Assembly: GCA_947467625.1 (NCBI GenBank) | Contig: CANIJN010000014.1 | Coordinates: 1 to 40,961 of the forward strand | Reading direction: 5' to 3' | Origin: Opitutia bacterium | GTDB lineage: Bacteria; Verrucomicrobiota; Verrucomicrobiia; Opitutales; Opitutaceae | Length of the DNA stretch: 40,961 nt | Shown here: positions 2,939 through 40,894 of the stretch, piece by piece | Layout of the letters: each line of letters starts with the position of its first letter | How positions within the stretch are numbered: the first letter of the stretch is position 1 | The notes under the pieces: model-generated | Told to the model about the DNA's origin: nothing | What the model saw: the letters and a program-made list of their open reading frames with translations, nothing else | Database searches by the model: none | Translations under genes and position numbers: made by a program

Positions 2939-2954
2939 GCAACGCCAATCCGAC

Positions 2955-3125: not shown

Positions 3126-3253
3126 ACGGAACTCGGAAATGGTTGGGGAGATCGGACTCTTTCAACTCTGAACCGTCAAATCTCAGCTTGTAGTCGCGGA
3201 TTGAGCGGACAAAGGCACCGGAGGTTTGACCGCTAGCCTGCGCGGATAAGCGC

Positions 3254-3624: not shown

Positions 3625-3699
3625 CTAACGAATAAACACTCGGTCGGGCCTGCTGAGGGTGTGCAGGAAATATTGAGTGAACTTTATACCTGAGCACTC

Positions 3700-4709: not shown

Positions 4710-4779
4710 GTTACAGCGGCAATCCAGTGCGGTCTAACGATTGCGGTGGGTTCACTTAAGCTACACCAAGTTTGTGGGT

Positions 4780-5240: not shown

Positions 5241-5263
5241 CTCGTGGCGGCCGGACGACGGGG

Positions 5264-5735: not shown

Positions 5736-5747
5736 GATGATAGTTGG

Positions 5748-5846
5748 GGGGCGACGGAAAAAGGGCTCAAACCCTCATGTCTGTGGTGCGTTCAAGCTAA
5801 AAACTGTGGAACGAGGAACCGCTGATCTCCGCTCATCGACGCTCAT
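5748..5846 (+). repeat. Dispersed modular repeat, copy 7 (A-B)
   Basis: GGCGACGGAAAAAGGGCTC, AAACCCTCATGTCTGTGG, TGCGTTCAAGCTAAAAACTG and CGCTCATCGACGCTCATG. It directly precedes (on the minus strand) the start-less DUF4160 gene and may have removed or displaced its 5' region. The stretch 5847-5961 shows no recognisable gene. Confidence 0.8.
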
Positions 5847-5961
5847 GAAAGCGTGTTGAATGGCCCGCCATGCGAGCAGGGAAAAGGCTGCACTCACAGC
5901 TTCGCCCCGTCGCTTCCGCTCGGAAGCAACGAGGCTGAGGAAGATAGGACCATCTCGGGGC

Positions 5962-6510: not shown

Positions 6511-6579
6511 TCGGAAAGAGTGGGCAGGATGGCCGCCCCGAGTTCAATCTAAATTGAGCTAAAATCCAAGAATAGGGAT

Positions 6580-6615
6580 CGGCCGACGGGGTCAGCCCCT
6601 AACCTTTGTGGATTG
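6580..6615 (+). repeat. Dispersed repeat, copy 8 (A core only)
   Basis: GGCCGACGGGGTCAGCCCCT followed by AACCTTTGTGG, closely matching the core at 1139-1165. It is isolated from B, C and D words. The rest of 6511-6757 shows no supportable gene. Confidence 0.7.
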
Positions 6616-6757
6616 CTCATTCGAATCGTTCTGAATCCATGAAGCGAAAGACGCCAAACACCCCGATGTCGGCTGGATTTAGGGCCGATCACGCGGCCGA
6701 GCGGTGTCCTTTTTTCTTTTCAAATCGAACCATGCGCGGTGCTCGGGCTTCGATTCC

Positions 6758-7231
6758 TTAATCCACGCTGCCAGCGGTTGGACCTGCACCGCTGCCAAAT
6801 GGGGCCGGTTCCTTTATTTTTAGTTTGGGAAACCAGCGCTTAAAATCTGCTCCGTTTCGGGTCACCAGCCCGGTGCGCGTCGCCGCAAAACCACCGATCA
6901 AAAGGTCCGCAACCGGCCTCTTGGGTATCATGTGCGCCCGGCGCACTTTGACATATTCATTCCACGCCCGGTGCGCCGCTTCAGTATCCGCGGCGGTCCA
7001 CAATTCCGAGCAACTGATACCGGCCTGCCCAAGGAATTCTTTTTGCTCGTGCATTTTGCCATCAAACGCCGCCGACAACTCCACCATGGTCACCGGACTG
7101 ATCGCCAAGCCTTGCGGCAGCAGTGATTGCAGCAATTCAGCAGACTTCCTTCCAAATTGAGGGTCATCCTCAAAAACATCCAAGATGACACAAGTATCGA
7201 CAATCCACATGGAGAAATGAACCGATCCCAA
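6758..7231 (-). CDS. PIN-domain toxin, VapC type (second)
   Basis: A 157-residue PIN-domain protein. The acidic set is visible: D in MWIVDTCVILDVF, E in PVTMVELSAAF, D in PVADLLIGGFA and D in TRNGADFKRWFP. It is expected to be a metal-dependent ribonuclease. The start is uncertain: TTG 7231 has AGGA 7 nt upstream, while ATG 7210 lies directly at the PIN domain but without a Shine-Dalgarno. It follows an AbrB-type antitoxin by 9 nt if TTG is used. The C-terminal 15 residues after KLKIKEP are Gly/Ala/Pro-rich and may be read-through into non-homologous sequence. Confidence 0.86.
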   Translation of the reverse strand: MGSVHFSMWIVDTCVILDVFEDDPQFGRKSAELLQSLLPQGLAISPVTMVELSAAFDGKMHEQKEFLGQAGISCSELWTAADTEAAHRAWNEYVKVRRAHMIPKRPVADLLIGGFAATRTGLVTRNGADFKRWFPKLKIKEPAPFGSGAGPTAGSVD

Positions 7232-7240
7232 GGGCTAGTC

Positions 7241-7486
7241 CTACTCCCCGCCCCGCAACTCCCGCATCCATTGTTCGGTGGTGCGTAAAGTCTCAGGTCG
7301 AAGTTTTCGGGCATAACCCAGCACGTTTAAGGGCCCGGGGGGCTTCTCTTCTTCGACCACCACGCGCATCTCTCGATTAGAGATACATTGCCATTTAAAT
7401 CGCTGGCCGGTATGAAGTCGCATAGCTTTTCTTAGCTCGGCAGGCACGGAAACCTGCCCGCGTTCCGTAAGGGTGGACTCATTCAT
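7241..7486 (-). CDS. AbrB/SpoVT-type antitoxin
   Basis: An 81-residue protein starting MNESTLTERGQVSVPAELRK, the classic swapped-hairpin AbrB motif (T-x-x-G-Q-v-x-v-P-x-x-x-R), followed by LHTGQRFKWQCISNREMRV and a tail (TTEQWMRELRGGE) likely to bind the toxin. AbrB-type antitoxins such as VapB and MazE bind DNA of their own promoter. The gene has no Shine-Dalgarno but a near-consensus promoter ending 8 bp upstream of its ATG. Confidence 0.88.
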   Translation of the reverse strand: MNESTLTERGQVSVPAELRKAMRLHTGQRFKWQCISNREMRVVVEEEKPPGPLNVLGYARKLRPETLRTTEQWMRELRGGE

Positions 7487-7494
7487 ATCGCGTT

Positions 7495-7522
7495 ATTTTA
7501 TCATGTAATTTCATCATGTCAA
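7495..7522 (-). promoter_or_regulatory. Strong promoter and candidate operator of the AbrB-PIN operon
   Basis: On the minus strand TTGACA (7517-7522) and TAAAAT (7495-7500) are separated by 16 bp, and the ATG is at 7486. The spacer and -10 contain two direct copies of ACATGATRAAAT with a 13-bp period (ACATGATGAAATT and ACATGATAAAATA), a plausible antitoxin operator. Transcription would begin within about 2 nt of the start codon. Confidence 0.7.
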
Positions 7523-7544
7523 TTGCCCGGATGAATTGAACGAG

Positions 7545-7590
7545 TTGCGCGGCCGACGGGATCGGCCGACGAGGTCATGCGACGGAAAAA
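7545..7590 (+). repeat. Repeat motif at the truncated end of the group II intron
   Basis: GGCCGACGGGATC is followed directly by GGCCGACGAGGTC, then GCGACGGAAAAA. The first two are tandem variants of the island's A-core prefix (compare 6583), and the last is identical to 5751-5762. The intron-encoded reverse transcriptase frame ends exactly in this sequence. Confidence 0.55.
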
Positions 7591-8918
7591 CCGAGGAACT
7601 CGATGCCTTCCTCTCGTGTATCCACTAACCGGGTTTTCGCTTCATTGAGCTTTAACTTTCGTGCCTCCAACCACCGTTGCAGGCGCGTTCGCAGCCCCGC
7701 CCCTTGACCCGGTTGGCACAGGATCAAGAGGTCGTCCGCATATCGCACCAGCGTCGGCTTTTGTTCGCACTGCTCATTCACCGCGTGATCCAGGTCGTTG
7801 AGGTAGAGGTTCGCCAAAAGGGGCGAGATGACGCCGCCTTGCGGCGTGCCACACCGGTTCGGGTGCACCTGACGGCGTCCCGTGTCCCGGTCCTCTTCCA
7901 CGCTCGGGGCGCGCAGCCATTCCTTGATGAGGCGCAGCACGCTGCCATCGCTGACCCGTTTGGCCACCTGTCGCAGGAGTAGGCGGTGTGGGATCAGGTC
8001 GAAGTAACTCGACAGGTCCGCATCCACCACCTCCACCTTTCCGCTCAGCAACGCTTCCTTGACTTTGTCCATCGCCTGATGGGTCCGGCGTTTCGGCCGG
8101 TAGGCGTAGGAGTGGTCATGGAAGTCCGCCTCCCAGATGGGTTGCAACACGATCGCTGCGGCACTCTGCACCACCCGATCTTTCACTGTGGGGATGCCGA
8201 GCGCGCGGCGCTTGGTCTTGGCCTGATCCTTCCAAATATAGACGCGCCGGACCGGATTTGGGCGGTAGGTCTTCGTCCGCAATTCCTCCGCCAGCGCGTG
8301 CAGCCAAGCTGCCCGCGCCGCCGGATCTTTTGCCAACGTCTCCACCGTGAACCCATCCACTCCCGGCGCGCCTGCATTTTCGTTCACCTGATCGAGCGCA
8401 TCGGACAGGACATCCTGCCGATACAGTTCGCCATACAGACTATAGAACCGCCAATGCGGCTCCGCTTTTGCTTTCCGATATAGCACCCGTTGTAGCTTCC
8501 GAACTTTGGGAGACGTTTTTATCCAGAGCTCATCACTCCGGCCATCGTCCAGTCCTTCGCCTCGCTGCGGTGCAGGGGGACAAGTGCCCTCCCTTCGCTC
8601 CCCGGCGGTTTTAATGTCCGCCAGATCAACACTACTATGGAGGTCTCCGACTCCTGCCCCGGCCCGACCGGCCTCACGCGGTGTGGCCGCGCTTGTGCCG
8701 GAGGTTGGCTCGCCGCAAGGCGACCCACCGGGACAGGTCTCACCACTTAACCTAACCACCCTTCCCGACCCGCCGCCCCCGCTGACTCCGCCGGTGCGTT
8801 CATCGGACATCAACGATTTGGGTCCTATGTCCTTGCGGGACTGCCCTGCCCGACCCTGACAGCCTTGCCCGTCTGTGGAGCGGCTCGGCTCACCGGTTGT
8901 TGTGCTTTCGGAGCTCAT
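7575..8918 (-). CDS. ltrA: Group II intron reverse transcriptase, C-terminally truncated
   Basis: The open frame gives 447 residues. The recognisable RT part begins near residue 133 (SPKVRKLQRVLYRKAKAEP) and includes GAPGVDGFTVETL, the RT2-3 block RRALGIPTVKDRVVQSA, VVDADLSSYFDLIPH, CGTPQGGVISPLLANLYLN and the catalytic YADD at 393-396. It stops six residues after FLGFSV, so the thumb/maturase domain X and any DNA-binding or endonuclease domain are missing. The first ~130 residues are Gly/Ser/Arg-rich with no family match that I recognise; they probably translate intron RNA domains, and the true start is likely internal (around residues 130-140). The catalytic core is intact but the protein should lack maturase function. 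Confidence 0.85.
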   Translation of the reverse strand: MSSESTTTGEPSRSTDGQGCQGRAGQSRKDIGPKSLMSDERTGGVSGGGGSGRVVRLSGETCPGGSPCGEPTSGTSAATPREAGRAGAGVGDLHSSVDLADIKTAGERREGTCPPAPQRGEGLDDGRSDELWIKTSPKVRKLQRVLYRKAKAEPHWRFYSLYGELYRQDVLSDALDQVNENAGAPGVDGFTVETLAKDPAARAAWLHALAEELRTKTYRPNPVRRVYIWKDQAKTKRRALGIPTVKDRVVQSAAAIVLQPIWEADFHDHSYAYRPKRRTHQAMDKVKEALLSGKVEVVDADLSSYFDLIPHRLLLRQVAKRVSDGSVLRLIKEWLRAPSVEEDRDTGRRQVHPNRCGTPQGGVISPLLANLYLNDLDHAVNEQCEQKPTLVRYADDLLILCQPGQGAGLRTRLQRWLEARKLKLNEAKTRLVDTREEGIEFLGFSVA

Positions 8919-9080
8919 ACGATGGGGTTCACCTTCGTTGCGGCTGGCCCGTTCGGACTTCGGTCGTGCTTTCCGGTAGCGCCTCGCGGCAACCGTCCGT
9001 GACCGGGTCCTTCGACCGCGAATCGTTTAATTCGGTCGAACAGACTTTCACTGTTGTGGTTGTTAGTTTCATGGTCGCAC
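7575..9080 (-). mobile_element. Group II intron, 3'-truncated
   Basis: On the minus strand the element begins at 9080 with GTGCGACC, the usual group II intron 5' end, and continues with AGTGAAAGTCTGTTCGACCG and GGTGAACCCC segments typical of domain I. It encodes a reverse transcriptase. No domain V hairpin, domain VI, or ORF C-terminus is present; the sequence is cut at about 7575, inside repeat sequence. The 5' exon is a copy of the island's CACGGA repeat (9081-9110). The intron should be unable to splice or move on its own. Confidence 0.75.
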
Positions 9081-9235
9081 CCACGGAGGGCACGGAGATC
9101 ACGGATGCTCGGAGATCAGAGAACTATCCGCGTTTCTATCCGCGCTATCCGCGTAATCTGTGGTGAAAATTGCTCGCAGGTTTGGCCGCAAAGAGGCGCA
9201 GAAGGCACAAAAGCCGAAGCAGGCGTAACATCCCG
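9081..9235 (+). repeat. Dispersed modular repeat, copy 9 (C-D), interrupted by the intron
   Basis: CACGGAGGGCACGGAGATCA with CACGGATGC, then GCGCTATCCGCGTAATCTG, TGGTGAAAATTGCTCGCAGG, and the D word TTGGCCGCAAAGAGGCGCAG. The intron 5' end joins at 9080/9081, and the 3' part of the repeat supplies the C-terminal codons of the DUF3368 frame. Confidence 0.8.
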
Positions 9236-9552
9236 GCCGCGCGCCGCGCGGCCTTGTCGTCCAAAACCGCCACGGTGCCGGCGTGCGTGCGTGCGTCTTC
9301 CAGCACCTCGGTTTCTCCGCGGCCCAGTCGCGCGAAGGCCAGCGGCGAAAGCAGAGCATTGGTTTCAACCACCGACAACCACCTTGACCCGCTGAGTAGC
9401 GCGTTCAGCGGATCGTCGACGGCACCGGCGGCAATTTCTTCCACCACAGCCCGGGGCACGACGATCGAGGAAAAGATCGAGGGGAGCAACTCAAGCAAGC
9501 CGGCTCGACCCAGCACGATCAGCGGCGAGGCGTTAACGACAGCAGGTTTCAC
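9145..9552 (-). CDS. DUF3368 PIN-like toxin, C-terminus replaced by repeat
   Basis: The first ~108 residues (VVNASPLIVLGRAGLLELL, VPRAVVEEIAAG, GRGETEVLEDARTH, VAVLDDKAARRAA) are a DUF3368 PIN-like domain, with acidic residues E and D in the ETE and LDDKAAR motifs. After ARRAAG the sequence becomes MLRLLRLLCLLRLFAAKPAS then FHHRLRG, which is the antisense translation of the island's D and C words. Family members normally continue with a helix of about 30-40 unrelated residues, so the natural C-terminus is lost and the stop is provided by the repeat. Function may be impaired. The GTG start overlaps the antitoxin stop as GTGA (9549-9552). Confidence 0.8.
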   Translation of the reverse strand: MKPAVVNASPLIVLGRAGLLELLPSIFSSIVVPRAVVEEIAAGAVDDPLNALLSGSRWLSVVETNALLSPLAFARLGRGETEVLEDARTHAGTVAVLDDKAARRAAGMLRLLRLLCLLRLFAAKPASNFHHRLRG

Positions 9553-9809
9553 CGGTCCAAAATCATCCGAGCTGCGGCCATCGCTTCATCGGCAGACTCC
9601 TGCAAAGGCGAAACGCGCATCCGGGAAAGGTGGGACACAAATTCACTGCGGGTCATTCCTGCCACCTCGGCCGCAACCTCCTGGCTTACTCTGCCGATTT
9701 CATACCATTTCGCCGCGGCGGCCGCCCTGAATTCGTGCGCCAACTCGCCGGAATCTCGATCAAGGCCGAAGAAGGCCGAATCTGTCAGCTCGATTGCAAC
9801 AATTTTCAC
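9549..9809 (-). CDS. UPF0175-family antitoxin
   Basis: An 86-residue protein with the UPF0175 pattern: strand, then helix DSGELAHEFRAAAAAKWYEI followed by GRVSQEVAAEVAGMTRSEFV, a helix-turn-helix-like segment (S-x-e-x-A-a-x-x-a-G-x-s-R-x-e-F). UPF0175 genes typically precede DUF3368 PIN-like toxins, which is the arrangement here. The start is GTG at 9809. It should bind the downstream toxin and probably the promoter DNA. Confidence 0.85.
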   Translation of the reverse strand: MKIVAIELTDSAFFGLDRDSGELAHEFRAAAAAKWYEIGRVSQEVAAEVAGMTRSEFVSHLSRMRVSPLQESADEAMAAARMILDR

Positions 9810-9899
9810 AATTGAAGAGAATCTTCAGGGCAATCTACGTTGTGAATCTGACGGCGCCCTTGCGCGACAAACATTAGGTCGAGTTTCTAAGCGCTTGGG

Positions 9900-10010
9900 T
9901 GAAAACACAGGGGGGAGGCCCCGGCAGTTGCACGCGCAAAACGGATATCACGGGTATCGGACGACCGGACCAGCCCCTAAAATTTGTGGTGCGCTCATCA
10001 AGCTGGTCTC
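9900..10010 (+). repeat. Dispersed repeat, copy 10 (degenerate, right edge of island)
   Basis: GTGAAAACACAGGGGG, ACGGATATCACGGGTATCGG and ACCAGCCCCTAAAATTTGTG then GTGCGCTCATCAAGC are weakened C, A and B words. No further copies of this repeat follow until an isolated relic at 29,110, so this marks the right edge of the island. Positions 9810-9899 and 10011-10141 show no gene. Confidence 0.65.
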
Positions 10011-27951: not shown

Positions 27952-29058
27952 ATGAAAATCCTCGTCGTCCAGGACTACCTCCGCAGCGGTGGCACCGAGC
28001 GCCAATCCGTTCTCCTCGCCAACGCCTTCGCCGCCGCGGGCCACGCCACGACGCTGCTGACGTTTCGACCCGGCGGAGCCTTGTCCGCGACGGTGTCCTC
28101 CGCCGTCGCTCGCATCGCGCTCCAACCTTTCGACGTCGGTCTCGATTGGTTCGCGCCTGGACTGTACCGCGCCACCCGCGCTCACGTTTTTGACGTGATT
28201 CTCTGCCTCGGCCGGATAGCGAACAGTTACGCGGGCGGACTGCAAAATCGACTGCCCGCGACCGCCGTCGTCGGCACGATGCGCACCGGAAAACGCCTGC
28301 CCGCGCTCTTCCGCGCCTCCCTCCACTCGGTCCGCCACATCGTTGCGAACAGCCACGACGCCCGCTCCACCCTCGTCGCCGAGTATGGCGTCCCGGGCGA
28401 AAAAATCTCCGTCATTCACAACTCGCTCGTCTTTCCCTCAGACCCGCCCGCGGGAGACGCGTCGCCCCCGCCGCGTCTCACCCTCCGCGCCCAACACGGT
28501 GCCACGGCGACGACCACCGTCCTGCTCACTGTCGCCATGTTCCGCCCCGAGAAAAACCAGCGCGAGCTCATCGAGATCGTCGCCGGCCTACCCGCCACCA
28601 CCGATTGGCAACTGTGGCTCGCTGGCGACGGACCCGCGCGCCCAGCCTGCGAAGCCCTCGTCGCCCGCCTTCACCTCGAAGCCCGCGTTCGTTTCCTCGG
28701 TTTTCATCGCAACCCTTCGCCGCTTTATGCGGCCGCCGACCTCGCCGTCCACGCATCGTGGAGTGAAGCGCTTTCCAATTTCCTCATCGAAGCGCAGGCC
28801 CACGGTCTGGCCGGCGTCGCTTATGCGGCCCAGGGCATTGCTGAATGCTGGCGACCGGACCGCACAGGCTGGACCATTCCCCGCGACGACCGCTCCGCCT
28901 TCCGCGCCACCTTAGTTCGCCTCATCGCCGAGCCCGCCGCCCTCCGCGCCACCCGCGCCGCCGACGCGCGCGCCTACGCCCGCACCACGTTCGACCCGCA
29001 ACGCCAAGTCTCGGCCTACCTCGATCTTTTTGCCCAGATCGGAGCGGCCCGCCGCTAA
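27952..29058 (+). CDS. GT4-type glycosyltransferase
   Basis: A 368-residue GT-B glycosyltransferase. N-terminal nucleotide-fold start MKILVVQDYLRSGGTERQSV, the acceptor-side loop GGTERQ, then IVANSHDARSTLVAEYGVPG and KISVIHNSL, and the C-terminal donor domain with VLLTVAMFRPEKNQRELIE, LWLAGDGPARP and HASWSEALSNFLIEAQAHGL containing the E-x7-E motif. The sugar and acceptor cannot be told; LPS or exopolysaccharide assembly is the usual role. A Pro/Ala linker (PPAGDASPPPRLTLRA) between the domains contains a palindromic repeat also found in uvrA. It is divergent from the holin-like gene with a 37-bp gap. Confidence 0.9.
   Translation: MKILVVQDYLRSGGTERQSVLLANAFAAAGHATTLLTFRPGGALSATVSSAVARIALQPFDVGLDWFAPGLYRATRAHVFDVILCLGRIANSYAGGLQNRLPATAVVGTMRTGKRLPALFRASLHSVRHIVANSHDARSTLVAEYGVPGEKISVIHNSLVFPSDPPAGDASPPPRLTLRAQHGATATTTVLLTVAMFRPEKNQRELIEIVAGLPATTDWQLWLAGDGPARPACEALVARLHLEARVRFLGFHRNPSPLYAAADLAVHASWSEALSNFLIEAQAHGLAGVAYAAQGIAECWRPDRTGWTIPRDDRSAFRATLVRLIAEPAALRATRAADARAYARTTFDPQRQVSAYLDLFAQIGAARR
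28452..28479 (+). repeat. Palindromic word in the glycosyltransferase linker
   Basis: GAGACGCG (28454-28461) and CGCGTCTC (28472-28479) are a perfect 8-bp inverted repeat around a 10-nt loop. The 23-bp segment from 28452 matches 20 of 23 positions at 31032-31054 in uvrA, and both are read in the same frame (G-D-A-S/T-P-P). Confidence 0.65.
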
Positions 29059-29109: not shown

Positions 29110-29152
29110 GCGATCTGTGTTCATCCGTGCCCTTCCGTGGTTAAAAAAATTC
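29110..29152 (-). repeat. Isolated relic of the dispersed repeat overlapping the uvrA start
   Basis: The minus strand reads TTAACCACGGAAGG, GCACGGATGAACACAGATCG, a variant of the C word of the 1-10 kb island. It lies in the opposite orientation to the island copies. The GTG start codon of uvrA (29137) and its first codons (GTT AAA AAA) fall inside it. Confidence 0.65.
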
Positions 29153-32100
29153 CCGCTCCCTCGTCCGACGCCGCAAAGCCCGAGTGCATTCGGCTGCGCG
29201 GCGTCCGCCAGAATAACCTCAAAGGCTTCGATCTCGACGTGCCCCTCGGCCGCTACATCGCCGTCACCGGCCTGAGCGGCGCGGGTAAATCATCCCTCGT
29301 GTTCGACACCCTCCACGCCGAAGGCCAACGTCGCTACGTCGAGACCTTCTCGGCCTACACCCGCCAGTTTCTCGATCTGCTCGACAAACCCAAAGTCGAT
29401 TCCATCGAAAACATCCGTCCGTCGATCGCCATCGAGCAGACCAACACCGTCAAGACCTCCCGCTCCACCGTCGGCACCATGACGGAGCTCACCGACTTCT
29501 TCAAAGTCTGGTTCAGCCACGTCGCCGAATGTTTCGATCCGACGACCGGTGAAAAGGTCGAGGACGACAACCCCCAATCCATCTGGGAAAAAACCTCCGC
29601 GGCCCACGCCGACCGCACGCTCCTCGTCTGCTTCAAGATCAGCAAACCCGCGAATCTCACGTGGCCCGAGATCCTCACCAGCCTGAAGAACCAAGGCTAC
29701 CTCCGCCTGCTCGTCGCAAACCAAATCCAAAAAATCGAAGACCTGCTGACCTCCTCTGTATCCGATCTCTCAACGCACCACCCTCAGTTCTCAACTGCGT
29801 CCGCAATTTACGTCGTCCAAGACCGCCTCGCCGTCACCGCCGCCAACCAATCGCGTTTTCTCGAAGCCACCGAAGCCGCCCTCCACTTCGGCCAGAGTCA
29901 GGTCTTCTACTTCGCCTCCGACACGTTTACTCCGGCGGGCCATTTCTCTCGTGGCCTCCACTCGCCCGCGACCGGCCGCACGTTTCGCGCCGCCTCGCCC
30001 GCATTATTTTCCTTCAACTCCCCACTCGGTGCTTGCCCCAAGTGCCGCGGCTTCGGGCGCGTCATCGACATCGATTACCGTCTTACGGTCCCCGACCAAT
30101 CCCTCTCCCTCGACGAGGGTGCGATCAAGTGCTGGGAGAGCGATATCTACGGTGAATCGAAGAAGGATCTCTACGTTTTCGCCCGGCAGAAAAAGATTCC
30201 CACCCACGTGCCGTTCGCCTCGCTCTCGCCGGAGCAGCAAGCCTTCATCATCGACGGCGAGCCCGGCTACGGCGAAGACAACGGGAAGCCTTGGCCGAAA
30301 TATTGGTATGGCGTGAAGGGGTTTTTTCGTTGGCTCGAGAAGAGCACGTACAAAATGCACGTGCGCGTTTTCCTCGCCCGTTATCGCGCTTACAATCCTT
30401 GCCCCGCCTGCGATGGGCAGCGCCTCCAACCCGAAGCCTTGTGCTGGAAATGGCAGGGGCGCACGCTGCCCGTTCTCTATCAACTCCCCGTCAGCGAACT
30501 CCTCACCCTCCTTGGCCAGGGGTCATGGGGTCAGGGTTCTTCCAGCGGCTCCGCCCACAGCGCCGAGCTCGCCTTCGACTCCATCCGCACCCGTCTGCGT
30601 TACCTCGCCCAAGTCGGCCTCGCCTACCTCACGCTCGACCGACAATCAAAGACGCTCTCCGGTGGCGAAGTCCAACGCGTCAATCTCACCTCCTGCCTCG
30701 GCACCTCGCTGATCGATACGCTGTTCGTCCTTGATGAGCCCAGCGTCGGCCTCCACCCGCGCGACATCGATCGTCTCATCGCGATCATCCGCACGCTGAC
30801 CGACGCCGGCAACACCGTCGTCGTGGTCGAGCACGACGAAGCGATGATCCGTGCCGCCGACCATGTGATCGAAGTCGGTCCCGAGCCCGGCAGCCGCGGG
30901 GGCCACATTATCTTCGAGGGCTCAGTCTCCGCTCTACTCCCGTCATCCACCAGCATCACCGGCGCCTATTTTTCCGGCCGCGAAACCATCCCCGTACCCA
31001 CCGCTCGTCGGCCCGTCGCCTCCGCCCTCAGGGGAGATGCGACGCCCCCGTCGCCTTCGCCGCGTTCCCCCGCCACCACGTGGCTCCATTTCAAAAACGC
31101 CACCAAACACAACCTCCGCAATCTCGACGTCCAGCTGCCTCTCGGCCGCTTGGTCTGCTTGTCCGGCGTCTCCGGCTCCGGCAAGTCCACCCTCCTCGAC
31201 CACGTCATTTACCAAGGCCTCCTCGCCCAACGTCTCCAACTCACCGAAGACCCCGCCGTCATCGAGGCCATCACGCTGACCAGCGCTCAACGCTCAACGC
31301 TCAGCGCTCAACCTGCGTCCGCTGCAGGCGCGTTCACCGAAATCCTGCTCGTCGACCAATCGCCGCTCTCGCGCACGCCGCGCTCCAATCCCGCCCTCTA
31401 CACCGAAGCGTGGGAACTGATTCGCGATCTTTACGCCGCCACGCCCGCCGCACTAGCCGCCGGCTTCAGCCCCTCGTCCTTTTCCTTCAACAGCGGCGAC
31501 GGCCGGTGCGACCACTGCCAGGGCCTCGGCTACGAACGCGTCGAGATGCAGTTCCTCTCCGATGTTTTTGTCCCCTGCCCGGTGTGCGAAGGCCGCCGCT
31601 TCAAACCCGAGGTCCTGGCGATCCGTTGGTGCGACCTCTCCATCGCCGACCTCTTGGCAACGTCCGTCACCGACGCACTCCCGCTCTTCGCCGACCACAC
31701 CGCGATCCACACGCGCCTCAGCTCCCTCGAGTCCGTCGGCCTCGGCTACCTCACGCTCGGCCAACCTCTCAACACCCTCAGCGGCGGCGAATCCCAACGT
31801 CTCAAACTCGTTCGTTATCTCGGCTCCTATACCGCCTCCGACGCCCCGCCCCCAGCCCCCCAATCCCCGGCCGCAGGAGGAGCCCTGCTCCTGCTCGACG
31901 AACCGACCACCGGCCTGCATCGCCACGACGTCAAACGTCTCCTCGCTGTCCTCCAAGCCCTCGTTGACCGTGGCCACAGTGTCGTGGTGATTGAGCACAA
32001 CCTCGACGTCCTGAAGTCCGCCGATTGGCTCCTCGAAATCGGCCCGGACGCCGGCGCGAATGGCGGCCGCATCGTCGCCGCGGGCACCCCCGAACACCTC

Positions 32101-35100
32101 GCCCACGCGCCCACCGCCACCGCCCCATTCTTGCGCGAGGCTCTGGCCATTAGTCATCTGTTAAATGACAAACCAATAAACGACCAAGGAAGTACTGAAA
32201 AACGTTGTCATTTATTAGATGACAACAGGGCTGACTTCCCCGCCGCTGCCGAAGATCCCGCTCCTTACCTCACCTCCTCCGGCGCTCCGGTCTCCGTCCT
32301 CAACTCTGCGCTCTCAACGCCCGGCTCTGCGCATGCGTCCTCCCTGCGCATCGAAGGCGCTCGCGAGAACAACCTCAAAAATATCTCGCTCTCCATCGCG
32401 CACCGCCAACTCACCGTGGTGACCGGCGTTTCCGGCTCAGGAAAATCGACCTTGGCTTTCGACATCGTCTTTGCCGAGGGCCAGCGCCGCTTCATGGAAT
32501 CGATGTCACCCTACGCGCGCCAATTCGTCGAACAGCTCCCGCGCCCCGCCGTCGACCGCCTCACCGGAATTCCGCCCACCGTCGCGATCGAACAACGTAT
32601 CACCCGCGGCTCCCGCAAATCCACCGTCGCGACGATCACCGAAGTCGCGCAATACCTCCGGCTCCTCTACGCTCGGCTGGGCACTCAACATCACCCCGAG
32701 ACCGACAAGCCCGTCACCCCGCTCTCTCCCGGCCAACTCCGCGCCCTCCTCACCCGCGTGCTCGCCACACCGGCTGCGCGCAGCGCGAAACACCTCTACC
32801 TCTGCGCTCCACTTATCCGCGGTCGCAAGGGTCACCACCAGCCCATCGCCACCTGGATCGCTAATCAGGGCTACGAACTCATGCGCGCCGACGGCAGACT
32901 CACCCGCGTCGACTCCTTTCAGAAACTCGATCGTTACAAAGAACACGACATCGAGGTCGTCATCGCCGACCTGAAGGCCGAGCACCCAGCGCCACGAGCC
33001 AAGAGCAAAACCAAGGCGCTGAAGTCTGGCGCTCAGCTCGCAACATCCGCCTCCCCACTCTCCGATCTGGACTCTCAGCTCACCACCGCCCTCCACGTCG
33101 GCAAGGGCTCGTGTTTCCTGCTCACCCCCAGGGGCGAGGTCCTCTCGTGGTTCTCCACCACCCGCACCGACATCGAAACCGGCGAGAGCTTTCCAGAGCT
33201 CGATCCGAAAAATTTCTCCTTTAACTCCCCGCGCGGTTGGTGCCCCACTTGTCGCGGCCATGGTCGCGTTTTTCCGTGGATGCTCGAACCGACCGACGAC
33301 CAAGACGCCAAGGACGACCCCGCCGCCCGCCTCCGCGAATTCGGCATCGATTCCGCGGACGATCTGTCTGACTCCGGCTCGGCTTGCCCCGAATGCCATG
33401 GCACCCGCCTCAACCGCATCGGCCGCTCCGTCAAACTCCACTTCCGTCCCGCTCCGCCCGCCCGCTCCGCGAAGTCCAGCTCTCAGCACTCAGCTCTCAA
33501 CGCTCAGCTCCCTTCCGCGGCTCTCTCCCTCCCCGCACTCCTCGCCGCGACTCCAGCGCAACTCTTGGCGCACCTCCGATCCCTCGAACTCGACGCCCGC
33601 GGCAAACTCATCACGCAAGACATCGTCCCGCAGATTGAGGAACGCCTGAAGTTTCTCGACCACGTCGGTCTCGGTTACCTCTCGCTCGACCGTCCCACCG
33701 ACACGCTCTCGGGCGGCGAATCCCAGCGCATTCGCCTCGCCGCTCAGCTCGGCACAAATCTCGCCGGGGTCCTCTACGTCCTCGACGAACCGAGCATCGG
33801 CCTCCACGCCCGCGACAACGATCGCCTCATCGAGACGCTGCAGACGCTCCGCGCTAAGGGGAACACGCTCCTCGTCGTCGAGCACGACGAAGACCTCATG
33901 GCGCGCGCCGACCGGATCATCGACCTCGGCCCAGCCGCCGGCATTCATGGCGGCGAACTGCTCGCTCACGGTACGCCGGCCGAAATCCGCGCGAGCGCCC
34001 ATTCCCTCACGGGTCTCTTCCTGGCCAAGGGCATCGTGCACCCCCTTCGCGGCACCTACCGTCCGGTTTTTGCTCCGTCCCGGTCCCCCTCCAAGCCCAA
34101 ATCCAAAGTCTCCGCGCCCGCACCCGCGCCCACCCCGCTCACGCTCTCCGGCGTCTCGTTCCGCAATTTAAAAAACTTCGATCTCCATCTTCCTTCCGGT
34201 CGTCTCATTATGGTCGCCGGTCCCAGCGGCGCGGGCAAATCCACGCTCTTCCGCGACGTCCTTCAACCCGCCGTCGCCCACGCGATCAAAACGAAGAACC
34301 CCAGACTCACCGGCCGCGACTTCGTCAAAGCCACCGGCTTCGCTCCCGAGGGTTCACCCACGCCCTTCACCACCCTGACGGGGGCCAGCGCCTTTCGCTC
34401 CGTCATTGAAGTTGATCAATCCCCCATCGGAAAAACCCCGCGCTCCACCCCCGCCACCTACCTGGGCATTTTCGATCTCATCCGCCAATTCTTCGCCGCG
34501 CTCCCCGAGTCAAAGATTCGTGGATACGCCGTCGGCCGCTTCTCGTTCAACACCGCCGGCGGCCGTTGTCCGACCTGTGACGGCGCCGGTCGCATCAAGC
34601 TGGAGATGGCGTTCATGCCTGACACCTATCTCCCGTGTGATGATTGCCGTGGCTCGCGCTATAGTCCCGACCTCAACACGATTGCTTGGAAGGGAAAGAC
34701 GATCGGCCAAGTCCTCCAACTCACGTTCGAAGAGGCGGCCCAGTTCTTCGATTTCCATTCGCAGCTCTCCCAGGTCTGCCGACTCATGGTCGATTGCGGC
34801 CTCGGTTATCTCACGCTCGGTCAGTCCTCACCCACCCTCTCCGGCGGGGAAGCCCAGCGTCTCAAACTCGTCACCGAACTTGCCGCCGGCCTCGCCACCT
34901 ACCGCGAACGCTCCCGCGGCACCTCGCCCCGCAATCTCTACTTGCTCGAAGAACCGACGATCGGTCTCCACCTCAGCGACTGCGAAAAACTCATCGGCGT
35001 CCTGCACTCGCTCGTCGATCAGGGCCACACGGTCGTCGTCATCGAACACCACCTCGACCTGCTGGCCGAAGCGGACTATATTATCGAACTCGGTCCGGTG

Positions 35101-35205
35101 GGAGGCCCCGATGGCGGCGAACTCCTCTATCAGGGCGAACTCGCCGGCCTCCTCACCATGAAGCGCAGCCCGACCGCCCCCTACCTCCGCGCGAAATTAA
35201 AGTAG
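29137..35205 (+). CDS. uvrA: Double-length excinuclease ABC subunit A (two UvrA halves fused)
   Basis: A 2,022-residue protein containing four ABC ATPase modules, twice the usual ~940. Walker A motifs: GLSGAGKSS 45-53, GVSGSGKST 677-685, GVSGSGKST 1097-1105, GPSGAGKST at 1695. LSGGE signatures at 507, 881, 1524, 1901. Zinc CxxC pairs at 300/422, 791/814, 1369/1417, 1811/1834. Walker B reads LDEP in modules 1-3 but LLEEP (E1938) in module 4. UvrA dimers scan DNA for lesions and load UvrB in nucleotide excision repair; this protein would carry a whole dimer in one chain. The GTG start is the only option before the first motif, has no Shine-Dalgarno, and lies in a repeat relic. Linkers near residues 210, 720, 1006-1068 and 1448 contain in-frame repeat insertions. 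The glycosyltransferase gene ends 78 bp upstream. Confidence 0.95.
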   Translation: MVKKIPAPSSDAAKPECIRLRGVRQNNLKGFDLDVPLGRYIAVTGLSGAGKSSLVFDTLHAEGQRRYVETFSAYTRQFLDLLDKPKVDSIENIRPSIAIEQTNTVKTSRSTVGTMTELTDFFKVWFSHVAECFDPTTGEKVEDDNPQSIWEKTSAAHADRTLLVCFKISKPANLTWPEILTSLKNQGYLRLLVANQIQKIEDLLTSSVSDLSTHHPQFSTASAIYVVQDRLAVTAANQSRFLEATEAALHFGQSQVFYFASDTFTPAGHFSRGLHSPATGRTFRAASPALFSFNSPLGACPKCRGFGRVIDIDYRLTVPDQSLSLDEGAIKCWESDIYGESKKDLYVFARQKKIPTHVPFASLSPEQQAFIIDGEPGYGEDNGKPWPKYWYGVKGFFRWLEKSTYKMHVRVFLARYRAYNPCPACDGQRLQPEALCWKWQGRTLPVLYQLPVSELLTLLGQGSWGQGSSSGSAHSAELAFDSIRTRLRYLAQVGLAYLTLDRQSKTLSGGEVQRVNLTSCLGTSLIDTLFVLDEPSVGLHPRDIDRLIAIIRTLTDAGNTVVVVEHDEAMIRAADHVIEVGPEPGSRGGHIIFEGSVSALLPSSTSITGAYFSGRETIPVPTARRPVASALRGDATPPSPSPRSPATTWLHFKNATKHNLRNLDVQLPLGRLVCLSGVSGSGKSTLLDHVIYQGLLAQRLQLTEDPAVIEAITLTSAQRSTLSAQPASAAGAFTEILLVDQSPLSRTPRSNPALYTEAWELIRDLYAATPAALAAGFSPSSFSFNSGDGRCDHCQGLGYERVEMQFLSDVFVPCPVCEGRRFKPEVLAIRWCDLSIADLLATSVTDALPLFADHTAIHTRLSSLESVGLGYLTLGQPLNTLSGGESQRLKLVRYLGSYTASDAPPPAPQSPAAGGALLLLDEPTTGLHRHDVKRLLAVLQALVDRGHSVVVIEHNLDVLKSADWLLEIGPDAGANGGRIVAAGTPEHLAHAPTATAPFLREALAISHLLNDKPINDQGSTEKRCHLLDDNRADFPAAAEDPAPYLTSSGAPVSVLNSALSTPGSAHASSLRIEGARENNLKNISLSIAHRQLTVVTGVSGSGKSTLAFDIVFAEGQRRFMESMSPYARQFVEQLPRPAVDRLTGIPPTVAIEQRITRGSRKSTVATITEVAQYLRLLYARLGTQHHPETDKPVTPLSPGQLRALLTRVLATPAARSAKHLYLCAPLIRGRKGHHQPIATWIANQGYELMRADGRLTRVDSFQKLDRYKEHDIEVVIADLKAEHPAPRAKSKTKALKSGAQLATSASPLSDLDSQLTTALHVGKGSCFLLTPRGEVLSWFSTTRTDIETGESFPELDPKNFSFNSPRGWCPTCRGHGRVFPWMLEPTDDQDAKDDPAARLREFGIDSADDLSDSGSACPECHGTRLNRIGRSVKLHFRPAPPARSAKSSSQHSALNAQLPSAALSLPALLAATPAQLLAHLRSLELDARGKLITQDIVPQIEERLKFLDHVGLGYLSLDRPTDTLSGGESQRIRLAAQLGTNLAGVLYVLDEPSIGLHARDNDRLIETLQTLRAKGNTLLVVEHDEDLMARADRIIDLGPAAGIHGGELLAHGTPAEIRASAHSLTGLFLAKGIVHPLRGTYRPVFAPSRSPSKPKSKVSAPAPAPTPLTLSGVSFRNLKNFDLHLPSGRLIMVAGPSGAGKSTLFRDVLQPAVAHAIKTKNPRLTGRDFVKATGFAPEGSPTPFTTLTGASAFRSVIEVDQSPIGKTPRSTPATYLGIFDLIRQFFAALPESKIRGYAVGRFSFNTAGGRCPTCDGAGRIKLEMAFMPDTYLPCDDCRGSRYSPDLNTIAWKGKTIGQVLQLTFEEAAQFFDFHSQLSQVCRLMVDCGLGYLTLGQSSPTLSGGEAQRLKLVTELAAGLATYRERSRGTSPRNLYLLEEPTIGLHLSDCEKLIGVLHSLVDQGHTVVVIEHHLDLLAEADYIIELGPVGGPDGGELLYQGELAGLLTMKRSPTAPYLRAKLK
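29764..29803 (+). repeat. In-frame CTCAACG-type repeat in uvrA, copy a
   Basis: CTCTCAACGCACC, CCTCAGTTCTCAACTGCGTC then CGC. It encodes the low-complexity DLSTHHPQFSTASA loop after residue 209, inside module 1. The TCAACTGCGTCCGC end is shared with copy b. Confidence 0.6.
31032..31054 (+). repeat. GGGAGAYGCG word in uvrA, second copy
   Basis: GGGAGATGCGACGCCCCCGT then CGC, 20 of 23 matches to the glycosyltransferase copy at 28452. It encodes GDATPPS in the Pro/Ser linker between modules 1 and 2. Confidence 0.6.
31282..31322 (+). repeat. In-frame CTCAACG-type repeat in uvrA, copy b
   Basis: GCTCAACGCTCAACGCTCAG followed by CGCTCAACCTGCGTCCGCT. It encodes SAQRSTLSAQPASAA within module 2 after the Walker A helix, where canonical UvrA has a short loop. 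It includes tandem CTCAACG units with an 8-bp period. Confidence 0.7.
32153..32224 (+). mobile_element. 72-bp AT-rich MITE-like element inserted in frame in uvrA
   Basis: Left end GTCATCTGTTAAATGACAA (from 32153) and the reverse complement of the right end, GTCATCTAATAAATGACAA, match at 17 of 19 positions. Each end is itself a small hairpin (GTCAT, 7-nt loop, ATGAC; at the right end extended to an 8-bp stem 32204-32211/32219-32226). The 72 bp equal 24 codons and keep the frame, encoding residues ~1006-1030 (HLLNDKPINDQGSTEKRCHL) in the linker joining the two UvrA halves. It is strikingly AT-rich within a GC-rich gene. No target duplication is obvious. Confidence 0.7.
32297..32340 (+). repeat. 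In-frame CTCAACG-type repeat in uvrA, copy c
   Basis: CCTCAACTCTGCGCTCTCAA, CGCCCGGCTCTGC and GCATGCGTCC. It encodes VLNSALSTPGSAHASS immediately before module 3, about 70 bp after the MITE-like element. Confidence 0.6.
33477..33513 (+). repeat. In-frame CTCAACG-type repeat in uvrA, copy d
   Basis: CAGCTCTCAGCACTCAGCTC then TCAACGCTCAGCTCCCT. It encodes SSSQHSALNAQLPS in module 3 after the second zinc pair. A weaker related stretch lies at 33030-33080. Confidence 0.6.
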
Positions 35206-36927: not shown

Positions 36928-37557
36928 ATGAACGCCCGCCGCCTGTCGCTCGCCGTCCTCGTCGCCAGTTTCGCCACACTAGGCTTTTCCGCCGAGGAAG
37001 AGGCCGTGAAGAAACCGACCCGCAACGAGGCGATGCGCGCCAAGATGGTCGAAGACGCCAAAAATCAAGCCGCCAAACCCGCGGTGCCGACGGCCACCAA
37101 GCCCTCCGCTGCGACCGCGAAAGCCCCGGGCGCTCCGGCCGAGCCGCCAAGCCCCATCTCAGCGGCCACCCCACCTGACTCCAGTCCTCCGACCAAACTC
37201 CCTGAAGAATCCGCCACGATTTTACCCAAAATAGAAGTCAATCGCAGCAAACTCCATCCCCTCGCCCGCGAGCTTTACGAAAAAGAAAAAGAGATCGCGC
37301 GGGAGAAACCACTCACCAAGCCCACCGAGTTGGACAAGGCGCTCAACCATCCCAAAGTCTCCGTCCCTTTATTCGGCGGCCAATCGACCGCCTCCCGCGC
37401 CTCGGTCGCCAGCGAGCGCACCAGCCTCCTCGAAGCCGAGGCCGACCTCATCGAGGAAATCGGTCGGGCCAGAACCAAGGAACAGCAAGCAGAACTCCGC
37501 AAACAGCTCGACGAACTCAAAAAAGTTCGCCGCGAGCTGGAGCACGCCGTCCGCTAG
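36928..37557 (+). CDS. Secreted protein with Pro/Ala linker and coiled-coil C-terminus, unknown function
   Basis: A 209-residue protein starting MNARRLSLAVLVASFATLGF with an SA|EEE-type signal-peptidase site. After the signal peptide comes a charged segment (KKPTRNEAMRAKMVEDAKNQ), a long Ala/Pro-rich linker, a charged region (LHPLARELYEKEKEIAREKP) and a C-terminal coiled coil (LLEAEADLIEEIGRARTKEQ to the end). I do not recognise the family. Start at ATG 36928, directly at the signal peptide; an in-frame start 48 bp upstream is less likely. It is likely periplasmic. Its TAG stop lies in a tandem duplication shared with the convergent rlmI gene. Confidence 0.7.
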   Translation: MNARRLSLAVLVASFATLGFSAEEEAVKKPTRNEAMRAKMVEDAKNQAAKPAVPTATKPSAATAKAPGAPAEPPSPISAATPPDSSPPTKLPEESATILPKIEVNRSKLHPLARELYEKEKEIAREKPLTKPTELDKALNHPKVSVPLFGGQSTASRASVASERTSLLEAEADLIEEIGRARTKEQQAELRKQLDELKKVRRELEHAVR

Positions 37558-37592
37558 CGCGTTCACTCCGCCCGCTAGCGCGTTCACTCCGC
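37551..37592. repeat. Two tandem 21-bp units at the convergent gene ends
   Basis: CCGCTAGCGCGTTCACTCCG plus C occurs at 37551-37571 and again, identical, at 37572-37592. The first copy contains the TAG stop of the secreted protein gene, the second the TGA stop of the rlmI gene on the other strand. Confidence 0.9.
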
Positions 37593-38756
37593 CCGCAAGA
37601 TGTAGCCGCGCAGATATTCGCTCTCCATCATCGTCACCAGCACCGGATGATCCGGTGGTTGGTGGCTCCACTCGACGACCCGCACCTTGCGTTTTGCGTC
37701 CGTCGCCGCATCGGCAATCACCCCGCGGGTCTCCGCATCCTGCATGTGATGCGAACACGTATAGGTCGCGAGCACGCCGCCGGGCGCGAGCCTTTGGAGC
37801 GCACGCAAATTGATTTCCTTGTAACCCCGCAACGCCCCTTCGAGCGCGCTCTTCGATTTCGCAAACGGTGGCGGATCGAGCACGATCACGTCCCACAATC
37901 CGTCGCCTGCGCGCACGGGGTCGTTGAACCAGTCGAACACGTTGGCGACCACAAACCGGGCCGTCGCCGCCACGCCATTTCGCTCCGCGTTGCGCTTGGC
38001 CGCGCCGATCGCGTCGAACGCACTATCGAGCCCGAGCACTTCCTTCGCACCCGCCCGCGCCGCGTGCAGACCGAACGCGCCCTGATTGCAGAACGCATCG
38101 AGCACCCGCTTCCCCGCGCAATACTTCGCTACCGCCGCATGCTGCGGCCGCTGGTCGAGATAGAATCCCGTCTTCTGCCCGCTCTGCAGATCGAGCCAGT
38201 AGTCAAATCCGTCAATCGTCACCCAACGCGGTTCCCAAGGATTTCCGGACCGCGTATGCACTTCCATCGGCAAACCTTCGAGGCGCCGAATCGGTGCATC
38301 GTTGCGAAAAATAATTTCCGCCGGCTGCACCACTTCCGCCAGCATGTCCCCGACCAATGCGGCCCGCTTCTCCATCGCTGCCGTCTGGATCTGGACGACC
38401 AAGGCGTCGCCAAACTGGTCCACGACGAGCCCCGGCAAATCATCGGACTCCGACCACACCAAGCGCCGGTTGCTGCCCGCCTCCCGCCGCGCCACCGCAC
38501 GCTCAATCGCCCCGCGGATGAACGCCCCGTTCAACGCCCCGCGCTCGCGGCTGAAGCGTCGCCAAATGATCTGCGACTTCGAATTGTAGATTCCGCTCCC
38601 GAGAAACCGGTCCGCCCGGTCGCGGCACTCGACCACCTCGCCGTCATGCTCAGCCGGCAAGAGCGCCTCGACTTCGTTGGCAAAGACCCACGGATGTCCG
38701 CTGAGGACGCGAGGCTTGGCGTTAGGTTTGAGTTTGAGCGTAGGAGTACTGGCCAC
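37584..38756 (-). CDS. rlmI: Class I SAM-dependent rRNA methyltransferase, RlmI-like
   Basis: A 390-residue protein. An N-terminal PUA-like domain (RVLSGHPWVFANEVEALLPA, LGSGIYNSKSQIIWRRFS) is followed by an EEHUD-like middle region (WSESDDLPGLVVDQFGDALV) and a Rossmann methyltransferase: SGQKTGFYLDQRPQHAAVAK, RVLDAFCNQGAFGLHAARAG (SAM motif I), VLGLDSAFDAIGAAKRNAE, VIVLDPPPFAKSK and TYTCSHHM. RlmI methylates C5 of C1962 in 23S rRNA; the catalytic Cys is expected in the TCSHHM segment, as in the family. It converges on the secreted coiled-coil gene. Confidence 0.9.
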   Translation of the reverse strand: MASTPTLKLKPNAKPRVLSGHPWVFANEVEALLPAEHDGEVVECRDRADRFLGSGIYNSKSQIIWRRFSRERGALNGAFIRGAIERAVARREAGSNRRLVWSESDDLPGLVVDQFGDALVVQIQTAAMEKRAALVGDMLAEVVQPAEIIFRNDAPIRRLEGLPMEVHTRSGNPWEPRWVTIDGFDYWLDLQSGQKTGFYLDQRPQHAAVAKYCAGKRVLDAFCNQGAFGLHAARAGAKEVLGLDSAFDAIGAAKRNAERNGVAATARFVVANVFDWFNDPVRAGDGLWDVIVLDPPPFAKSKSALEGALRGYKEINLRALQRLAPGGVLATYTCSHHMQDAETRGVIADAATDAKRKVRVVEWSHQPPDHPVLVTMMESEYLRGYILRAE

Positions 38757-39220: not shown

Positions 39221-40894
39221 ATGTCGCCCGCCCAAGAAATCGCCCGCCGCCGCACCTTCGCGATCATTTCGCACCCTGACGCGGGTAAGACCACGCTCAC
39301 GGAAAAATTCCTCCTTTACGGCAACGCCATCCATCTCGCCGGCACCGTCACGGCCCGAAAAAACCAGCGCGCCACCGCCTCCGACTGGATGGAACTCGAG
39401 AAGCAACGCGGAATCTCCATCTCCTCAACAGTCCTCCAATTCGACTACGCCGGTTGCGCCGTCAACCTCCTCGATACCCCTGGGCACAAGGATTTCTCCG
39501 AGGATACCTATCGCGTCCTCACCGCAGTCGATGCCGTTGTCATGGTCATCGACGCTGCCAAGGGCATCGAGGCGCAAACTCGCAAACTCTTCGAAGTCTG
39601 CCGGCGCCGCGGCGTCCCGATTTTCACATTCATGAACAAGTGCGACCGCCCCACGCGCAACGCCCTTGAACTCCTCGACGAGCTCGAAACCGTCCTCGGT
39701 CTCCAGTCCTCCCCCGTCATCTGGCCCCTCGGCAACGGCCCGTCGTTCCGCGGCGTGTTCGACCGGCGCTCCCGCGAAGTCCACCTCTTCGAGCGCGTCG
39801 CCGGCGGAAAATTCCAGGCCCCCGTCAACGTCACGTCCCTTGAAGATCCCGCCGTCCGCGCGAAACTCGACGACTACACGTTCGATCAAGTCACCGAGCA
39901 ACTCGCCATGCTCGACGGCGCCGGGCACCCCTTCGACCTCGCCGCCATCCGCGCCGGTCAACAAACCCCCGTCTACTTCGGCAGCGCGGTCAATAATTTC
40001 GGGATTCAGCTCCTCCTCGATGGCTTCCTCCAAGATTCCATCCCGCCCCAGCCGCATAAATCCGCGAGCGGTGGGAACGAGACGCTCGCGGGGCGTTCGT
40101 CTGTCACCGTCGGCTCGGAGCCTGCGGCCGCCCGCAGCATTCCCGTCGACTACCCGAAGTTCTCCGCCTTCGTGTTTAAGATTCAGGCCAACATGGACCC
40201 CAAGCACCGCGATCGCATCGCGTTCGTCCGCATTTGCTCCGGCAAATTCGAGCGCGACATGACCGTAATCCATCAGCGCAGCGGCCGCACCATCCGCCTC
40301 TCCTCTTCCCACAAACTGTTCGGCCAGGACCGCGAAACCGTCGATGAAGCTTGGCCCGGCGACGTCATCGGCCTCGTTGGCCACGACAGTTTCCGGATCG
40401 GTGACACCCTGACCGAGGACAAATCCATCCGCTATGACGAGATCCCGCGCTTCCCACCCGAGGTCTTCACGTTCATCGCCAACCCCACCCCCTCCGACGC
40501 GAAAAAATTCCGCGCCGGCCTTGAACAGCTTCTCCAAGAGGGCGTCGTCCAATCCATCACGCTCCGCGCCGGCATGACGACCTCCACGCTCCTCGCTGCC
40601 GTCGGCACCCTGCAATTCGAAGTCGTCCAATGGCGCCTCCAAGCCGAATATGGTGCCGAGTCCCGGCTCGATGTCTCGCCGTGGAGCCTGATGAAGTGGC
40701 TCGCACCAGCCGACCCCGCACAAAAACTCCCCGACCCCTCCCTCTTTTTGGTGCCCAGTGGCGTCGCCTTTGGCTCGGACAAACTCGACCAGACCGTCGC
40801 CCTGTTCCCCAGCGAATGGACGATGCGTTATTTTGCGGAAAAAAACCCCGCCGTCCGTCTCCACGACCTCCCTCTCGAGCAGACCACACTGTAA
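39221..40894 (+). CDS. prfC: Peptide chain release factor 3
   Basis: A 557-residue translational GTPase that recycles RF1/RF2 from terminated ribosomes. G1 ISHPDAGKTTLTEKFL, switch I region QRGISISSTVLQFDY, G3 LLDTPGHKDFSEDTYR, G4 TFMNKCDRP, then the RF3-specific VFKIQANMDPKHRDRIAFVR and FEVVQWRLQAEYGAESRLD. It is about 28 residues longer than E. coli RF3 (529); most of the excess is a Ser/Gly/Ala-rich insertion (residues ~277-297, from HKSASGGNETLAGRSSVTVG) carrying a DNA palindrome. The rest is intact. The divergent rlmI gene starts 464 bp upstream. Confidence 0.97.
   Translation: MSPAQEIARRRTFAIISHPDAGKTTLTEKFLLYGNAIHLAGTVTARKNQRATASDWMELEKQRGISISSTVLQFDYAGCAVNLLDTPGHKDFSEDTYRVLTAVDAVVMVIDAAKGIEAQTRKLFEVCRRRGVPIFTFMNKCDRPTRNALELLDELETVLGLQSSPVIWPLGNGPSFRGVFDRRSREVHLFERVAGGKFQAPVNVTSLEDPAVRAKLDDYTFDQVTEQLAMLDGAGHPFDLAAIRAGQQTPVYFGSAVNNFGIQLLLDGFLQDSIPPQPHKSASGGNETLAGRSSVTVGSEPAAARSIPVDYPKFSAFVFKIQANMDPKHRDRIAFVRICSGKFERDMTVIHQRSGRTIRLSSSHKLFGQDRETVDEAWPGDVIGLVGHDSFRIGDTLTEDKSIRYDEIPRFPPEVFTFIANPTPSDAKKFRAGLEQLLQEGVVQSITLRAGMTTSTLLAAVGTLQFEVVQWRLQAEYGAESRLDVSPWSLMKWLAPADPAQKLPDPSLFLVPSGVAFGSDKLDQTVALFPSEWTMRYFAEKNPAVRLHDLPLEQTTL
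40062..40091 (+). repeat. Palindrome inserted in frame in prfC
   Basis: CCGCGAGCG (40062-40070) and CGCTCGCGG (40083-40091) form a perfect 9-bp inverted repeat around a 12-nt loop. It encodes SASGGNETLAG, residues ~281-291, in a loop absent from typical RF3. Confidence 0.7.

Follow-up and report, generated by a model that had tools for sequence, protein, structure and literature searches.

The linker that joins the GTPase domain of the peptide chain release factor RF3 encoded here to its domain 2 is best read as containing the translated remnant of a mobile repeat, REP C, which would be ancestral to the genomes G000, G001 and G003 and would have been tolerated and left to drift; we put the probability of this reading at about 0.8. 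It is directly supported by a family of dispersed repeats, by a better-preserved ortholog of the RF3 copy in G003, by a codon phase common to the RF3 units, and by a conserved protein body beside a changing loop. On this reading, a decayed mobile repeat explains the RF3 insert at least partly. The window is the whole stretch of DNA that was analysed, with its 40,961 nucleotides, and G000 is the genome to which it belongs.

The prfC gene and its linker

The gene was identified by its Pfam domains (GTP_EFTU, residues 9-269; EF-G_D2, 313-399; RF3_C, 405-538) and by RF3 chains of the PDB (best E 4.7e-146), and the insert was delimited by the comparison of 128 loops, by pLDDT and by the Pfam borders at 269 and 313.

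39221..40894, + strand: prfC, peptide chain release factor 3, 557 aa
40058..40138, + strand: hypervariable linker insert, residues 280-306, at the junction of the GTPase domain and domain 2

The earlier note had credited this RF3 with about 28 residues more than the E. coli protein. The 557 residues do exceed the 529-residue PDB chain 2h5e_A, which we take to be E. coli RF3, by 28; in the printed alignment with 7siq_A, the linker holds 21 extra residues. The linker insert is predicted to be disordered, the pLDDT being below 50 for residues 284-302, REP-coded residues 284-293 included, in an AlphaFold2 model with 35 sequences and a mean pLDDT of 81.4. The loop is a changing stretch, little constrained at the protein level, beside a conserved body, since the loops of G000 and G003 differ at 8 of 48 amino acids (10 of 144 nt) and the bodies at 3 of 509 (47 of 1527 nt).

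The 9-bp inverted repeat

As the earlier note had reported, prfC contains a 9-bp perfect inverted repeat, with CCGCGAGCG and CGCTCGCGG as its arms, 12 nt between them, and FVFKIQANMDPKHRD following. Both arms are read directly from the sequence; the left one lies upstream of the REP C unit described below, and the right one is the middle of that unit.

40062..40070, + strand: left arm of the inverted repeat, outside the REP C unit
40083..40091, + strand: right arm of the inverted repeat, within the REP C remnant

G001 has the same two arms and G003 has both of them broken (CCGCGGGCA / CGCTCGCGT), and the palindrome is probably a chance by-product of substitutions. A search for the arm pair elsewhere in the genome, as had been proposed, led back to a single place (loop of 6-20 nt, whole genome), and with no second copy the pair was rejected as a distinct repeat family. 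A 141-nt query around the inverted repeat likewise gave no dispersed copies, its next best match (E 0.002 over 23 nt) being outside the REP.

A clear genome excess of such hairpins was also rejected: perfect inverted repeats of at least 9 bp with a loop of 3-20 nt number 56 in 441 kb of the window genome versus 50 in one Markov-1 shuffle, although longer ones are in excess over the shuffle (25 versus 9 at 10 bp or more, 9 versus 3 at 12 bp or more). Within prfC, a score of at least 9 is reached by 4.2% of 2249 body windows of 144 nt versus 10 of the 128 loop-centred windows, and a score of at least 12 by none of the former versus 3 of the latter. The near-shuffled rate of 9-bp repeats and the 4.2% of control windows that equal the palindrome's score fit an ordinary, fast-evolving disordered linker without any mobile element, in which palindromes arise by chance in GC-rich DNA, as do the 44 of 128 loops of a uniform 'VPG' type (non-REP loop types were assigned by regular expressions written after reading the loops). 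We consider this explanation unlikely, as it leaves unexplained both the dispersed repeats within the RF3 loops of G025 and G032 and the well-preserved unit of G003.

Two further explanations concern the palindrome itself. It might be what is left, after deletion of the middle, of the REPIN family 'REP A' (GTAGCCGCGAGCGCCAGCGAGTGG), whose GTAG is followed by the same 9 nt as the left arm and whose inverted pair in L057 agrees with the arms in orientation. The match, however, covers only 9 nt per side, which led us to reject REP A as the source; moreover, the GTAG/CTAC ends are absent, G003 is without the arms but has the better-preserved REP C, and nothing REP A-like in the genome is matched significantly by the RF3 stretch, so that we hold this origin to be very unlikely. 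A hairpin kept for a role in the prfC mRNA, be it translation pausing or RF3 autoregulation, appears extremely improbable. The arms do pair in an isolated 46-nt RNA (-19.2 kcal/mol, z -1.97), and the REP hairpin of G003 also forms (-22.6, z -1.28), but once its natural flanks are included (91 nt) the RNA is predicted to adopt a fold other than the arm hairpin (z -0.41), and the role was rejected on this ground; furthermore, the arms are not retained in G003 and the loop of G006 is unrelated.

A probable decayed REP C unit in the RF3 of the window

The reading that we prefer, a remnant of REP C, draws on a unit that extends from the end of the left arm across the right one.

40071..40097, + strand: decayed REP C unit GTGGGAACGAGACGCTCGCGGGGCGTT, residues 284-293; PWM 9.5 bits, 20/27 to consensus

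The REP C consensus, CTGGGGACGCGACGCCCTCGTCGCGTT, comes from a PWM trained on 38 dispersed units with the RF3 loci excluded. Identity to it is 20/27 in G000 and G001 and 24/27 in the orthologous copy of G003. The unit of the window scores 9.5 bits, whereas none of 1229 windows of the prfC body exceeds 1.8, and the G003 ortholog scores 32.3, a value that is partly circular, like that of G032, because some training units were fetched by likeness to those RF3 loops. At the same site G003 has a perfect 8-bp palindrome, ACGCGACG-CTCG-CGTCGCGT, which is decayed in the window copy, and the latter consists of one REP C unit only, unlike the inverted pairs found elsewhere. Since matches of at least 8 bits number 3 in 400 kb of shuffled sequence versus 4 in 400 kb of real sequence, the call in the window rests on the G003 ortholog, without which the case for a REP C copy would be weak.

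The linker is shared by G000, G001 and G003, and REP C would already have been present in that of their common ancestor. The extra linker would then contain the translated and decaying remnant of a short, palindromic, non-autonomous REP/REPIN, inserted in frame where the GTPase domain meets domain 2, in a phase that would give the hydrophilic Gly/Asp/Ala/Thr/Pro/Ser peptide GDATPPSR. Because the linker is in all likelihood disordered, the insert would have been tolerated and then have drifted; we infer this tolerance, as well as the absence of a selected function. The proposal of the earlier note, that the extra residues stem from a hairpin-forming repeat tolerated in a loop, is thereby supported for at least part of them, with a decayed REP C as the repeat in place of the palindrome to which it had pointed. 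The converse that it had envisaged, a loop ancestral and conserved in verrucomicrobial RF3 with no such repeats elsewhere, is not what we found: the loop is hypervariable in the family and REP C is dispersed.

REP C as a dispersed family

REP C was first derived from the matches of the G032 RF3 loop, and its dispersed units have the palindromic core ACGCGACG-CCCT-CGTCGCGT. When one mismatch is allowed, the core GCGACGCCCNCGTCGCGTT occurs in 75 of the 252 family genomes and in 28 of 49 genera (reversed control 0-1 per strand), and it is absent from the other 177 genomes. Copies of the REP C pattern number 11 in G000, 7 in G003, 11 in G001, 25 in G032, 83 in G011 and 185 in G125, with a reversed control of 0 in G000, G011 and G125; one of the 25 copies of G032 (C103:6472-6490) is its RF3 copy. 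Inverted unit pairs (REPIN) are found at L074, L076, L196, L205, L206 and L208 and also in the RF3 of G032. As to the GTAG (or GTGG) tag that REPs have at one end, most dispersed units read (C/A)TGGGG or (C/A)TGGAG, and the RF3 copies of G000, G001 and G003 read GTGG.

Searches with the RF3 loops as queries point to the same family. Matches of the G032 loop within its own genome number 46 at E <=0.5, the best besides itself reaching 1.2e-10, and its best E values elsewhere are 2.2e-10 in G023, 1.4e-9 in G025 and 3.3e-7 in G000. When the G003 loop is the query, it is matched over about nt 18-50, and the best BLAST matches outside prfC have E values of 2.6e-6 in G001, 2.4e-5 in G032, 4.7e-5 in G006, 8.1e-5 in G003 itself and 4.3e-4 in G000, and a search of G012 gave a single match with E 0.37. 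The dispersed matches of the G104 loop are weak, the best being 5.2e-4 in its own genome and 3.4e-5 in G025.

The family also occurs in other coding regions. The ORFs with a copy in G011 include those of a DNA ligase and a coproporphyrinogen oxidase, and all three copies found in the window lie within ORFs, namely prfC and two ORFs in which the unit is in the RF3 codon phase. Pfam matches are UvrA_inter, UvrA_DNA-bind and ABC_tran for the first of these and Glyco_trans_1_4 for the second.

31029..31062, + strand: REP C copy in the uvrA-like ORF 29137-35205, RF3 codon phase (RGDATPPSPSPR), PWM 27.0
28449..28482, + strand: REP C copy in the glycosyltransferase ORF 27952-29058, RF3 codon phase (AGDASPPPR), PWM 21.3

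The uvrA-like ORF is 2022 aa long and has two UvrA_inter stretches, as a tandem UvrA, and its linkers hold, besides the REP C copy, two simple CTCAA-type repeats (31281-31305 and 33484-33508).

RF3 linkers across the family

A prfC match was obtained in 205 of the 252 family genomes; 130 loci were examined and 128 loops kept, one of them from outside the family (L039, G056), after leaving out L123 (G164) and L179 (G135), which the loop regular expression did not match, and the fragment L042. In a wide search of 80 loci, the FGS-to-FK spacing is 51-52 residues in 64 of the 73 RF3 loci that match the pattern, and among the longer linkers at least five belong to records with names such as Opitutae, Opitutaceae and Didemnitutus or those of close kin. 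In the window's family, where the stretch was taken with two residues beyond FGS-FK, the linkers are 53-101 residues long.

Nine of the 128 loops score above all 1229 control windows of the prfC body for REP C. Their PWM scores are 37.9 in G032 and 32.3 in G003 (the two partly circular values), 31.9 in G104, 16.4 in G269, 14.9 in G025, 10.6 in G073, 9.5 in G000, 7.0 in G001 and 4.4 in G011, with 0.7 for the next loop. The RF3 of G269 has this unit-like stretch, yet its genome has 0 REP C pattern copies. What appears to be the clearest case of insertion into RF3 is that of G025, whose insert contains a 16-bp perfect palindrome. Within G025 its loop gives 79 matches; two are the RF3 copy itself, many are one palindromic place on both strands, and the best of those other than the RF3 copy has an E of 1.6e-12; in five other genomes the best match of this loop has an E of 0.002 and lies outside the palindrome.

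Other loops carry unrelated repeats. The linker of G006 is unrelated and made of AAATCC-type heptamers despite a close RF3 body (path 0.017 on the tree), and that of G005 is likewise heptamer-coded. Linkers with CCAAAATC-type heptamers, coding for peptides like NPKSKIENW, were assigned by the same expressions to G006, G005, G029, G065, G066, G113, G110, G109 and G117, which span several genera, and the RF3 copy of G029 is a perfect match to the heptamer pattern. With 2 mismatches allowed, the heptamer CCAAAATCCAAAATCGAAAAT is counted 12 times in G006, 20 in G005 and 64 in G113, whose loops have it, and 1-2 times in G000, G001 and G003. Against a broad 'repeat sink', however, the heptamer is frequent in G010 (69) and G009 (28), whose RF3 loops are without it, and G117 has a heptamer loop with a genome count of only 2. 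The prfC loop of G091 (L114), outside the REP C PWM picks, contains a 12-bp perfect inverted repeat, CGCGGATAATCC/GGATTATCCGCG.

Codon phase and insertion history

In 9 of 9 REP loops the + strand REP C unit is in one common codon phase, GDATPPSR or decayed forms of it; in G025 and G073 the top score goes to the inverted partner, which shares the GDATPPSR phase. Stop codons do not explain this, because in five of the six frames of REP C a stop interrupts only 2-4 of the 38 units, and in the sixth none. The bias is weaker in G011, where 30 of the 83 REP C places were fetched and yielded 15 stop-to-stop ORFs of at least 300 aa with an internal REP, of which 10 were scanned with Pfam and 8 matched. 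The frames in these eight are GDATPSSR-type in 4, RDEGVASP in 2, LGTRRPRRV in 1 and NATGASRP in 1, the ORFs being a selected set in which some REPs may be upstream of the true start.

The common phase of the nine RF3 units could be due to shared descent. A FastTree tree was built from RF3 with the loop removed, and 42 of its 125 inner branches are drawn open; on it, parsimony requires 6 changes of the REP state for 9 tips and 9 changes of the heptamer state. A single ancestral insertion with many losses may have produced this distribution, and it is favoured by the identical offset (44) of the unit in G003 and G104. We prefer several independent insertions into the linker, which seem the better reading because the G025 family is absent from the five other genomes and because the copies of G032, G104 and G003 are well preserved. 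Going further, one may see in the RF3 linker a recurrent landing place, reached by REP/REPINs some six independent times, always in the one of six frames that gives a flexible Gly/Asp/Thr/Pro/Ser linker, and by AT-rich heptamers repeatedly in other genomes, the family recycling non-coding repeats as linker peptides with selection on the frame of new inserts; this we regard as possible but, on balance, doubtful.

Association with Y1 transposases

REP C may be mobilised by a RAYT. Matches to the Y1 transposase domain PF01797 number 2 in G000, 2 in G003, 8 in G032 and 4 in G011; there are 0 in G025, a carrier of an RF3 insert. REP C-like units flank the Y1 match on both sides at L252 in G032 (30.1 and 32.2 bits), as do diverged ones at L244 in G000 (12.2 and 11.4 bits). 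The two main flanking units have the same orientation at both loci, and the arrangement resembles the REP-RAYT-REP of known REPtrons. The same PWM scan found no REP C-like unit at the 14 other loci of the 16 with a Y1 transposase. At L244 (G000:C249), the Y1 match also has TGGGAGCGCCGACGTCCCCGTCGGCTTTTAAC on either side, which may be the terminal repeat of yet another REP-like family.

Relation to known systems

Intragenic REPs are already known in Opitutus terrae, and the RF3 case would be a further example of them. The article on that species, cited below by its PMC number, is presumably that of Di Nocera et al. (2013). In the passages that we used, O. terrae has dispersed REP units of the GTAG type and inverted dimers, some of them inside ORFs; over half of the intragenic inserts encode 20-30 residues, and both uvrA genes and a DNA ligase were named as REP-bearing in 2013 (PMC3733652). 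REP C is similarly found in the uvrA-like ORF of the window and in the DNA ligase ORF of G011, but most of its units end with (C/A)TGG, unlike the GTAG REPs of those passages (PMC3733652). The recurrence of REPs at a single site in different members of a family, like the shared codon phase, is reported here and is not described in the passages of PMC3733652, in the main text of which the terms 'release factor' and 'prfC' do not occur. A full-text literature search, with most subscription journals outside its scope, found no paper on a REP in RF3.

In its palindromic unit, inverted pairs and Y1-flanking units, REP C resembles the REPIN/RAYT (TnpA-REP) systems as presented in the parts consulted of PMC8266576 (also PMC8049555 and PMC3116915). 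It departs from the account in PMC8266576 in that the two strongest flanking units of L252 and L244 have the same orientation and that G025 has the RF3 insert without a Y1 transposase match. The Rickettsia palindromic elements (RPE), which are in-frame insertions in proteins (as cited in the passages of PMC3733652), share with REP C a palindromic repeat in frame that is tolerated by a probably functional protein; they belong to another phylum and are likened to it here by mode of action.

The probable presence of REP C in RF3 suggests a route from non-coding mobile repeats to protein sequence in a conserved translation factor. The RF3 linkers of close relatives, with well-preserved, decayed and unrelated versions, form a natural series on filtering, through frame and disorder, and on decay. 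A word of caution also follows for the reading of palindromes in coding regions, as one of them may be accidental while the element of interest lies next to it.

Other repeats in the window and its genome

Two more REP-like families, both starting with GTAG, are present in the window genome: A, the REP A considered above, and B (GTAGGAGCCTGCTTGCGGGCGATT). Loci of the two families are L057:18640-18710, L054, L060, L044, L049, L050 and L056, the REP A inverted pair being in L057. In the window, positions 1-10000 hold several families of imperfect direct repeats of 40-125 nt, with 3-10 copies each, over about 10 kb, and at 37543-37596 a 21-nt tandem repeat of 2.6 copies occupies the convergent end of two ORFs.
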